64,000 bases of DNA, from NCBI GenBank assembly GCA_947459215.1, contig CANHCQ010000005.1, positions 1-64,000 on the forward strand. Direction: 5' to 3'. The notes below the pieces were generated by a model. It ran no database searches and was not told the DNA's origin. It saw only the letters and a program-made list of their open reading frames with translations. The position numbers and the translations under genes were made by a program. Source of the stretch: Phycisphaerales bacterium (GTDB taxonomy: Bacteria; Planctomycetota; Phycisphaerae; Phycisphaerales; UBA1924). Numbering within the stretch: position 1 is the first letter of the stretch; the number at the start of each line of letters is the position of its first letter. Of this stretch, positions 19,244-21,991 are shown piece by piece.

Positions 19244-19999
19244 TCAGGGAATGTCACGGCCCCAGATTCCATTCACCGTGGAATAGGTTTCGCCGCGCTC
19301 GGGATAGTCGATCGCATCCTTGGCTGCGAATCGGCGCACCGCGCCGTCCATCGTCATAATCGAAGTCCGAGGCGTTGTGGATCGTCCGATGTCGAGTGCC
19401 AGCGACCGTGCCACGGGGTCGCTCATACAGAACGCCGGGAACTCGAACAGATACACCTTCGCAGAGGGAAACGTGGCGTCCGAAATCTTGTTCGGCCCGA
19501 TGCGAAAGTCCGCAGGCGTGTTGCCAGCACCCATCGTGTCCGCGCGGTTGTACAAGGCAAAGCTGAATTCGTACGTCGGTGTCGGACGCTCATGCTCCCA
19601 CCGGAACGCACCGGTCGTGAATGGCGAGTCCGGGTCATACCGCGGTTGCTTGGGGCACTGCAGTCCGGGATTCCAGCGAGCCTGTCCCGACCACTCTTCT
19701 GGGAACAGAAACGACCAACGCCCAGTCATGATGCTGTTACCAGTCGGATGCCCCATGCGAATAGGGGGAAGACCCTGTATGTGAATCGTTCGAGGTTCCC
19801 ATCCCTGAAAGGGGATGTGGTCCTTATTCGCAGTGGCGTATGCAAACAAGACCACTCCGGTCTGCCGCATGTTGCTCAGGCACTTGATCTCAAGTCCCTT
19901 CCAGCGTGCCGCTTGCATCGCTGGGAGCGTGAGCGTCATCACGATCCCGGTGATCGAGATCGTGATCAGCAGATCGATGATGGTGAAGGCCCTTCGCAT
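19244..19999 (-). CDS. type II pseudopilin-like protein with atypical processing site
   Basis: The 251-residue protein starts with a prepilin-type signal, MRRAFTIIDLLITISITGIV, followed by a globular domain. It resembles planctomycete DUF1559-type pseudopilins: CLSNMRQTGVVLFAYA, then a C-terminal TMDGAVRRF that matches the DG-V motif of that family. The expected processing-site glycine at -1 is alanine, and the +5 glutamate is aspartate, so cleavage by prepilin peptidase is uncertain. It lies divergent from the cysteine-rich operon across about 130 bp. GC content is lower than in the flanking acyl-CoA genes. Confidence 0.8.
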   Translation of the reverse strand: MRRAFTIIDLLITISITGIVMTLTLPAMQAARWKGLEIKCLSNMRQTGVVLFAYATANKDHIPFQGWEPRTIHIQGLPPIRMGHPTGNSIMTGRWSFLFPEEWSGQARWNPGLQCPKQPRYDPDSPFTTGAFRWEHERPTPTYEFSFALYNRADTMGAGNTPADFRIGPNKISDATFPSAKVYLFEFPAFCMSDPVARSLALDIGRSTTPRTSIMTMDGAVRRFAAKDAIDYPERGETYSTVNGIWGRDIP

Positions 20000-20044
20000 C
20001 GCTCGACAATCTTGAGAAAGTTACCCACACCCTCCATTTCCGTG

Positions 20045-20075
20045 TTGACAGGGTACCCCCCCCGTCGGTTATGCT
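20045..20075 (+). promoter_or_regulatory. candidate sigma-70 promoter of the cysteine-rich operon
   Basis: A perfect TTGACA at 20045-20050 is followed by TATGCT at 20070-20075 with a 19-bp spacer containing a run of C. It lies 55 bp before the start codon at 20131. The -35 match is unusual for this genome, but the spacer is a little long. Confidence 0.45.
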
Positions 20076-20130
20076 GCAACGGAATCTTGAGCAATTCGCC
20101 AAGTTGCCACGAATGAACAAGGAGCATCCG

Positions 20131-20556
20131 ATGTCGAGCACGAAGCAGTTGGTGGGACGCTTTGTCCGTCGCAGCGCAGCCGTCGCGATCGTCGCTGGAG
20201 GAGCGTGGGTCGCCGCGGACGACCACATGCCGACGCCGGGATGCGAAGCGCCTGCCTTTGTGCAGTGCTATACACCGACATGGGTTGCGACTTATCAAAG
20301 AGAGTTCACTGGATGTACTTGGTACGCCGAGTGCCCGGTGACCGTGCTCTGCGGTGCGACCAGTGTTTACACGTCCTTGCAGCCGGCTGGACCGATCGTC
20401 CCGGCTCTTGCCTTTACATGCCGCGAGTACATTAACGGTGCCAGAAATGCCGCGGGACTATGCGTGAACGGCACGCCTGTCATCCCGTCAACGGTTTCTT
20501 GTACTGCAAACATCCAGGCGTGCATGCCCGACTGCGTCTGGACATGCTGGGCATGA
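20131..20556 (+). CDS. small cysteine-rich exported protein
   Basis: The 141-residue product has an N-terminal segment RRSAAVAIVAGGAWVAA consistent with a signal peptide, then about 113 residues with 11 cysteines, many in the pattern x-C separated by 6-16 residues and ending CMPDCVWTCWA. I do not recognise a family. The ATG at 20131 is chosen because AAGGAG lies six bases upstream; in-frame ATGs at 20071 and 20113 are alternatives. The stop overlaps the next ATG (ATGA), so translation is coupled to the membrane-anchored protein and then to the MauE-like protein, which suggests a thiol/disulfide-related function for the set. Confidence 0.75.
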   Translation: MSSTKQLVGRFVRRSAAVAIVAGGAWVAADDHMPTPGCEAPAFVQCYTPTWVATYQREFTGCTWYAECPVTVLCGATSVYTSLQPAGPIVPALAFTCREYINGARNAAGLCVNGTPVIPSTVSCTANIQACMPDCVWTCWA

Positions 20557-21491
20557 AATCGCACTATTTAGGCGTGCTTGTTCAGGTGTACGTTGCGGCA
20601 TTCTGTGTCGCAGCCGTCAGCGGCGATGACAGCCATCTCGTCGTGAAAGAACTATTACACTGCAAGTTTACTTGGATTGACAAGACGAACGGTGTCCAGA
20701 CAGAATGTGCTGCGGCGGCTGATGGACGGTACGCGGTCTTGTACTCCGAAGCCGCTTCGAAAGGATCCTCGATCTACACCCCGAGTTCTGGAAGTTGGTG
20801 GACACCTGAGGAGTTCGTGTCCGTTATTCCAGGGAGCTACCAGCTAATGGCGGCTCCACCTCCGACGCTTTCGCCAGATTCTTGGCCGACTGTTACGTCG
20901 GAGTGTCCTTGGCCGCACCTGCCTGTATGGATTTCGCTGCTTCGGGCTCAGTCGGACTTCGCATCTGGAATCGAGCCGGTTTCCGGCTATTTGACTTACT
21001 CAAGCGAGGTACTTGGCAGGTCTCTAGCTTGGGACGATGCTGGTGATCTGAGAGCAATCCGGTGTGTCACCAAGTCTGAAGGCCAGTCTTCGGCCGTCGC
21101 GGAGGTCGTGTATCTTTTTGCGGACTACGAGAATCGAGACGGTGTCCGCGTTCCGACGAAACGAAAGCTGCGAACGAGTCGCAGCAACGGCAGTGAGACT
21201 CGGCGGTCTGAGCAAGAGTTCGTATTAGCGACGTTCTCTCGCTCGCCCCAACTCGTCGAAGACGCCCTCTCCACTCGCCAGATCAAGGCCACAATGGATC
21301 GCCGCGAGCCAAACGGCGACATCTACGCCCCCGACGGCAAGAAGAAGTACAACGACAAAGAACTTGCGGCCCGCATCGCTGGCGACCTCACCGGCAACAC
21401 CACCCGCGCCCGCTGGTCGTATTGGATTGTCGGCTCTCTGACCGCGTTCACGCTCCTGCTCGTTGGCTTCAAGTACTGGCGTCGTGCATGA
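20553..21491 (+). CDS. exported protein with C-terminal membrane anchor, unknown function
   Basis: The 312-residue protein begins with a signal-like segment (MKSHYLGVLVQVYVAAFCVAAVSG) given here only by its ends, has a soluble middle without recognisable domain, and ends in one hydrophobic helix, YWIVGSLTAFTLLLVGFKY, followed by WRRA. That topology places most of the chain outside the cytoplasm, tethered by its C terminus. The ATG at 20553 overlaps the stop of the cysteine-rich gene and its own stop overlaps the MauE-like start, both as ATGA. It may be the surface partner or carrier of the cysteine-rich protein; this is inference from gene order. Confidence 0.7.
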   Translation: MKSHYLGVLVQVYVAAFCVAAVSGDDSHLVVKELLHCKFTWIDKTNGVQTECAAAADGRYAVLYSEAASKGSSIYTPSSGSWWTPEEFVSVIPGSYQLMAAPPPTLSPDSWPTVTSECPWPHLPVWISLLRAQSDFASGIEPVSGYLTYSSEVLGRSLAWDDAGDLRAIRCVTKSEGQSSAVAEVVYLFADYENRDGVRVPTKRKLRTSRSNGSETRRSEQEFVLATFSRSPQLVEDALSTRQIKATMDRREPNGDIYAPDGKKKYNDKELAARIAGDLTGNTTRARWSYWIVGSLTAFTLLLVGFKYWRRA

Positions 21492-21991
21492 ACCATCGCC
21501 ATCGCACACTTATGGTCGAGGTTATCTGCGTGCTGCTCGCAGGCGTCTTTCTTTACGCTGTTGCGTCCAAGGCGACAACCGATCGCGTCACCGCCTCCGG
21601 TGTTCTCCCAGGTGTTCACGCGTTTGCCGCCAACATCGCTGATCAGCAGGTTGTTCCACCCTCTGCGGCGCTCATCGTCGCACGCACCGTTCTCGCTACC
21701 GAAACGGTGCTGGCGCTGTGGCTTCTGTTCCGCATCCGCATGCGAGCCGCGCTGTTCACCGCCCTCGCAGTCGTCGGTCTCTTTTCTGGCTACCTCGTCC
21801 TTTCCTACGCCCTCGGTTCGCGTGCTCCCTGCGGTTGCCTCGGCCGCATTGGCGGATCGACGCTCTTCGACAGCCTGCTCAGAAACGCGGGTCTTCTTTT
21901 CGTCGGGGTAACAGGCATTTGGCTTCTGAAGCCGCCTTCGCCGACGCCCGTCGGGGCGGCGAGTCCGCGAGCGGCCGAGAACCCTGCCTGA
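21488..21991 (+). CDS. MauE/DoxX-like membrane protein
   Basis: A 167-residue protein with four hydrophobic helices (around residues 9-28, 62-82, 87-107 and 128-146) and the APCGCLGRIG loop between helices 3 and 4. A C-x-C-x-G loop in a four-helix protein is the hallmark of the MauE/DoxX redox-associated family; MauE itself is needed for maturation of the disulfide-rich methylamine dehydrogenase small subunit. The start overlaps the previous stop (ATGA). No mau structural genes are nearby. Its likely client is the cysteine-rich protein two genes upstream. Confidence 0.8.
   Translation: MNHRHRTLMVEVICVLLAGVFLYAVASKATTDRVTASGVLPGVHAFAANIADQQVVPPSAALIVARTVLATETVLALWLLFRIRMRAALFTALAVVGLFSGYLVLSYALGSRAPCGCLGRIGGSTLFDSLLRNAGLLFVGVTGIWLLKPPSPTPVGAASPRAAENPA

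Follow-up and report, generated by a model that had tools for sequence, protein, structure and literature searches.

A MauE-family gene, a pseudopilin gene and a variable cysteine-rich exported protein in what appears to be a multicopy module of a Phycisphaerales family

The window, i.e. the whole stretch of 64,000 nucleotides of Phycisphaerales DNA analysed here, contains a compact module (19244-21991) in which genes for a small exported cysteine-rich protein (A), a membrane-tethered partner (B) and a MauE-family membrane protein follow one another, with a pseudopilin gene on the opposite strand. Its features are:

19244-19999, minus strand: pseudopilin, 251 residues, divergent from A (ORF; family profile match; the same position is filled in other modules)
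20131-20556, plus strand: gene A, small exported cysteine-rich protein, 141 residues (ORF; alignment of 18 homologues)
20131-20217, plus strand: putative signal peptide of A, cleavage placed by eye near the junction of AWVAA and DD (leader conserved in duplicated relatives)
20553-20556, plus strand: ATGA overlap of the A stop and B start (same overlap in the first copy at locus L058)
20553-21491, plus strand: gene B, 312 residues, with a signal-like start, a periplasmic domain and a C-terminal membrane anchor (ORF, alignment, model)
20904-20915, plus strand: CPWP motif of B, its WP near-invariant (alignment of 20 B proteins)
21300-21353, plus strand: B motif R..-NGD(I/V)..PDG...YN, directly before the membrane helix (alignment of 20 B proteins)
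21408-21485, plus strand: C-terminal membrane helix of B (residues 285-311 in the model), then basic residues (Arg)
21488-21491, plus strand: ATGA overlap of the B stop and MauE start (from the sequence)
21488-21991, plus strand: MauE-family (PF07291) membrane protein, 167 residues (Pfam 7.6e-21, 75 bits against a cutoff of 27)
21830-21838, plus strand: CGC motif of MauE, Cys115 and Cys117 (from the sequence)

Both junctions in the A-B-MauE order are 4-nucleotide ATGA overlaps, and the ORF coordinates bear out the three overlapping genes described in an earlier note on this DNA. The note had also placed them in a lower-GC island between housekeeping genes, which agrees with a GC content of 57-61% in the module segment against 63-70% in its surroundings, with an acyl-CoA dehydrogenase-like gene on one side and, on the other, genes apparently coding for a 2-oxoacid dehydrogenase complex. 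The "perfect TTGACA" that it took for a promoter element is present at 20045-20050, with a -10-like TATGCT 19 nucleotides off, but a promoter scan did not list this pair; the sole match of the scan falls within B, where 0.8 are expected by chance, and we rejected the TTGACA as a promoter. A same-genus search with B found no window-type B in seven congeners, and the window module was therefore probably gained or lost locally. One of these congeners has a sister-type module with a MauE-prepilin fusion (L195).

The N-terminus of A is signal-like (..AVAIVAGGAWVAA followed by DD..) and its mature part has 11 cysteines in about 112 residues, in keeping with the signal-bearing, 11-cysteine protein originally proposed. 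The cysteine-rich frame is conserved at the protein level: eight cysteines are near-invariant in the 18 aligned homologues (six invariant, two nearly so), corresponding to residues 46, 62, 68, 74, 97, 111, 131 and 135, with further cysteines at 38, 124 and 139. These cysteines constitute the conserved pattern, and no other metal or cofactor pattern is seen in that alignment. Searches with A against Pfam, NCBIfam, PADLOC and PHROG recovered no match and no toxin family, and neither A nor its homologues matched a relevant Pfam family or could be recognised as a methylamine dehydrogenase light chain. A structure model of A from four sequences has a mean pLDDT of 46.6 and is too poor for use.

MauE and MauD mature the small subunit of methylamine dehydrogenase, and A might accordingly be imagined as a cell-envelope redox or metal protein matured by the module in the MauE/MauD style. 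While the combination of a MauE-family protein with a cysteine-rich partner indeed resembles the mau case, the Pfam results just given, the conservation of cysteines with no other cofactor pattern, and a polymorphism (see below) that would be unusual in an enzyme subunit all speak against such a role, which we consider hardly probable.

The signal-like start and single C-terminal membrane helix ascribed to B by the earlier note are both recovered, the helix appearing in the structure model. This model, computed from four sequences, is weak (mean pLDDT 56); it aligned with the LolA-superfamily structure 3buu at Z 7.1 over 161 residues and with LolB (9tpm) at Z 5.7, values below 8, which can reflect a common arrangement. 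LolA/LolB superfamily entries occupied ranks 1, 3 and 5 in a second-look structural alignment of the same model, and the top sequence-profile match of B was likewise LolB, albeit weak (E 0.038). Foldseek with the B model gave no match at E 1e-3, and searches of 20 B members against Pfam, including its LolA/LolB families, gave none at 0.1. As a lead only, these comparisons suggest that the periplasmic domain of B may adopt a LolA/LolB-like fold.

The third gene is, as had been recognised, MauE-like with a CGC loop: its product passes the PF07291 cutoff, and a CxC motif is found in 93 of the 93 MauE domains checked across the family. Several old module clades, poorly resolved, are seen in the MauE tree. 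The genome from which the window derives has five MauE genes above the Pfam cutoff, the fifth of which follows genes that read as DUF1573-like and rhodanese-like, an ordinary context. The combination of DUF1573-like, rhodanese-like and MauE genes recurs in the family as a second, ordinary MauE context (L064, L070, L081, L091 and about L146-L153). At two loci of one genome (L084 and L088 in G051) MauE is joined to an HMA-like metal-binding domain near heavy-metal transport genes, and these proteins branch as a clade of their own in the MauE tree.

The divergently transcribed pseudopilin begins with MRRAFTIIDLLITISITGIVMTLTLP, with Ala at position -1 and Asp replacing Glu at +5. Its match to the N_methyl model is weak and below the cutoff (E 0.12), and a profile of other pseudopilins from the family, constructed without the window protein, matched it at 6e-44; that the divergent pseudopilin gene is real, as the earlier note held, is supported by this match.

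To survey the distribution of the module we searched 163 genomes from 74 genera of the family with single proteins, counting matches at E 0.005-0.1 as noise unless they were confirmed by profiles. A and B were found side by side in three genomes of other genera (G150, G045 and G051). Profiles of A and B, each derived from seven sequences, matched 11 and 13 genomes respectively and, though searched separately, their matches were mostly adjacent. The earlier note had made its proposal depend on the three-gene order occurring elsewhere; A-B-MauE is present in G045 (L059) and in G051 (L061), and A-B without MauE in more genomes, with L058, L060 and L062 being modules that have no adjacent MauE. 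Named examples include Phycisphaerae MAG-53 (JAEUIW01) and Phycisphaerales SJ233 (JADLCM01). A related-locus search with four B sequences recovered three loci in two named MAGs; the same search gave no loci with a single B and no conserved stretch with 20 B sequences.

The module is also repeated within genomes. The window's own genome has four, including that of the window, each comprising a pseudopilin, a cysteine-rich gene, a B-like gene and MauE; G150 has about a dozen, most of them beside a pseudopilin, and G051 and G045 have several. They display two gene orders, namely A-B-MauE, where the pilin gene is separate and often divergent, and B-A-MauE, and the B proteins of fused-type modules show a weak profile-profile match to the window type. 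The A proteins fall into 30 sequence clusters among 57, and the four A proteins of the window's own genome cannot be related to one another by phmmer. Judged by its sequences, then, the system is multicopy and polymorphic, which goes beyond the single module of the earlier note. Short A ORFs of 84-106 residues with C.C...CCCC runs occur at L161, L165, L176, L188 and L092, where a partner with an N-terminal membrane helix takes the place of B.

The association of these genes was quantified on a sample of 95 MauE loci from the family, with a single mechanical rule deciding what counts as a small cysteine-rich ORF with a signal; the rule was fixed after examples had been seen, yet was applied equally to the controls, and the p-values are guides only as the MauE loci are phylogenetically non-independent. 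A pseudopilin lies within 2.7 kb of MauE or is fused to it at 68 of the 95 loci. A signal-bearing cysteine-rich gene lies upstream at 57 of these 68, as against none of the 27 loci lacking a pseudopilin (Fisher 3e-15, for non-independent loci), and the rule picked out such a gene near only one of 94 background genes, compared to 57 of the 95 MauE loci. The dedication of these MauE proteins to a cysteine-rich exported protein is thus strongly supported statistically. The number of cysteines in mature A is even in 46 of the 57 (binomial 3e-6, for related loci), that of the window protein being odd. Hence, of the disulfide module advanced in the earlier note, the link between MauE and the cysteine-rich protein stands; its other half, that MauE makes the disulfides of A, is what we infer because of the role of MauE in the mau system and a similar suggestion for Streptomyces clusters (PMC7794033).

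At 39 of the 95 sampled loci MauE and a prepilin are encoded in one ORF (e.g. 388-1611 of L155, 409-1641 of L195 and 862-2157 of L086, all on the minus strand, and 36 others). These fusions consist of a four-helix MauE domain with CxC, a linker, the prepilin motif G/A^F....E and a pilin body; a script parsed 32 of them and gave a median linker length of 27 residues, a linker net charge of +4, G/A at position -1 and E at position +5. The glutamate at +5 is found, by script or by eye, in all 39, unlike the aspartate of the window pseudopilin. With curated models, MauE and N_methyl both scored above the Pfam cutoff in three of the four fusions tested, TIGR02532 being above its cutoff in all four and PF07963 in three. 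Since a MauE domain with a cytoplasmic C-terminus would place the cleavage site on the working side of the peptidase, the topology appears to fit cleavage by a prepilin peptidase; the window's own genome gave two matches to prepilin peptidase and five to secretins. In a class-wide search that scored four candidates per genome, the full-length fusion matches listed all belong to this family, and 20 MauE loci elsewhere in the phylum had neither a pilin fusion nor a convincing cysteine-rich partner. Within this sample the MauE-prepilin fusions are apparently confined to this Phycisphaerales family.

Given these 39 fusions, we count the pseudopilin of the window (19244-19999) as a core part of the system, and its earlier description as a gene merely next to the module does not hold. 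Pseudopilin genes are abundant, and one lies near seven of the 94 background genes, so that a chance neighbour of a true A-B-MauE unit might be envisaged; this is very improbable in the face of the frequency with which pseudopilins accompany MauE, and is largely refuted by the direct fusions.

Duplicated modules in G150, which is a single contig, reveal a mosaic pattern of divergence. Two of them, about 50 kb apart (L075, C1:1385000-1395000 and L076, C1:1437000-1447500), are 97-100% identical over the pilin, MauE and the signal peptide of A, compared to a DNA identity of 65% in mature A and 70% in B, suggesting a possible cassette exchange or homogenisation of the flanks. Three other duplicated pairs (L058, L073 and L079) are alike mainly on the pilin/leader side and in the membrane tail of B, with a largely unalignable middle. 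Divergence thus affects mature A and the ectodomain of B jointly while the flanks are shared, a pattern that marks A and B as a probable cognate variable pair. For mature A in the only duplicated pair measured we obtained dN 0.37, dS 1.1 and dN/dS about 0.33; simple positive selection, calling for a ratio above 1, was rejected in this one pair, and the value argues for a divergence of A that would derive from exchange, recombination or old alleles rather than from rapid point change. With its LolA/LolB-like look and an ectodomain varying together with A, B as a cognate holder or immunity protein fits at least as well as the "display" function proposed for it earlier.

Joint divergence of two partners between conserved flanks is as in effector/immunity pairs, and A could be a secreted, polymorphic protein with antibacterial or other antagonistic action, with B as its anchored cognate immunity protein, MauE providing the disulfides, the pseudopilin mediating export, and competition between relatives generating the diversity. 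The many A clusters and the four unrelated A proteins of a single genome would accord with this. However, A matches no toxin family in the four collections searched, its dN/dS in the one duplicate pair is not above 1, and the LolA-like fold of B, if right, would equally point to a carrier or chaperone. We regard this proposal as unlikely, though as one to be taken seriously.

We instead favour, with a probability of about 0.5, the reading that the window holds one copy of a polymorphic delivery module that exists in multiple copies, with MauE oxidising A, B acting as the cognate partner of A, and the pseudopilin linking A to a pseudopilus. Points that tell against it are the odd number of cysteines in the window's A, the Asp at +5 of its pilin, the modules with no adjacent MauE, and the weak B and unusable A models. 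Under such a mechanism A would be exported and fold into a disulfide-bonded protein, the four-helix MauE with its CxC supplying or relaying the oxidising power for its disulfides. B, located at the inner membrane, would use its LolA/LolB-like periplasmic domain to bind its own A and hold it until release, perhaps also shielding the producer. The pseudopilin dedicated to the module, cut by prepilin peptidase, would couple A to a pseudopilus of the type II/type IV type, and A would be secreted or shown at the pseudopilus tip. In the sister modules, where the prepilin begins with MauE, the pilin would be freed by a cut at G/A^F. A more far-reaching version, which we offer tentatively and with more doubt than conviction, envisages a lineage-specific polymorphic secretion system where a MauE-type redox protein and a prepilin form one unit, in many copies a single polypeptide, that folds and delivers exchangeable disulfide-rich proteins, each paired with its own tethered partner; the MauE domain would serve as a giant prepilin leader, and new A-B pairs would arise by recombination between the pilin/leader and the B-tail/MauE flanks.

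We found no published description of the whole module in the open-access literature. It seems to be a hitherto undescribed system by which cysteine-rich proteins of variable sequence are made and delivered. If so, disulfide formation would be connected with pseudopilus assembly, a link between redox chemistry and the pilus that the MauE-prepilin fusions allow to be tested directly; the MauE family would gain a second role, open to test, that lies outside methylamine metabolism; and environmental planctomycetes would harbour variable cysteine-rich proteins in large numbers.

Among known systems, the module shares with mau the genetic tie between a MauE-family membrane protein and a small exported disulfide-rich protein. 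It differs from it in having no recognised methylamine dehydrogenase subunit, in possessing a pseudopilin and B instead, and in being multicopy and polymorphic. The type II secretion and type IV minor pseudopilins (TIGR02532, N_methyl) resemble its pilins and fusions in the class III signal G/A^F....E, from which the window's pilin departs by its Asp at +5, and the prepilin peptidases and secretins of the window's own genome agree with this likeness; the module pilin differs in being fused behind a four-helix MauE at 39 loci and in its tie to a cysteine-rich protein. In the open-access literature we found no report of a pilin so fused and so tied, no paper joining MauE and prepilin except one unrelated genome paper, and none linking Phycisphaera with cysteine-rich pilins. 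The Verru_Chthon cassette (TIGR02596, TIGR02599) of PVC bacteria is likewise multicopy and encodes prepilin-type proteins; matches to its models score 12-24 bits, far under the cutoffs of 70 and 256.5, with only the N-terminal pilin segment in common.

Dedicated membrane-tethered folding factors exist, e.g. the lipase foldase Lif and GerS, and offer a functional analogy for B as one periplasmic partner dedicated to one secreted protein, just as the LolA/LolB superfamily might offer a structural one, membership being only suggested. What sets B apart from all of these is that it has a signal-like start and is tethered through a helix at its C-terminus.

The closest published parallel lies in the candidate families predicted by decRiPPter in Streptomyces, where mauE occurs outside mau clusters with a precursor of at least 8 cysteines, in putative RiPP clusters of actinobacteria (PMC7794033). 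With this precedent, and with the C-C-CCCC runs of the short A forms in sister modules, A might be a precursor from which a disulfide-rich peptide natural product is made, which is the role proposed in those clusters. We consider this improbable, as window-type A has about 112 mature residues and a Sec-type signal, and the module shows no modifying enzyme, peptidase or ABC exporter, its constant partner being a pseudopilin. The part of PMC7794033 consulted mentions no pseudopilin, MauE-prepilin fusion or anchored partner for the Streptomyces clusters, and it is in these components that the planctomycete module stands apart from them.
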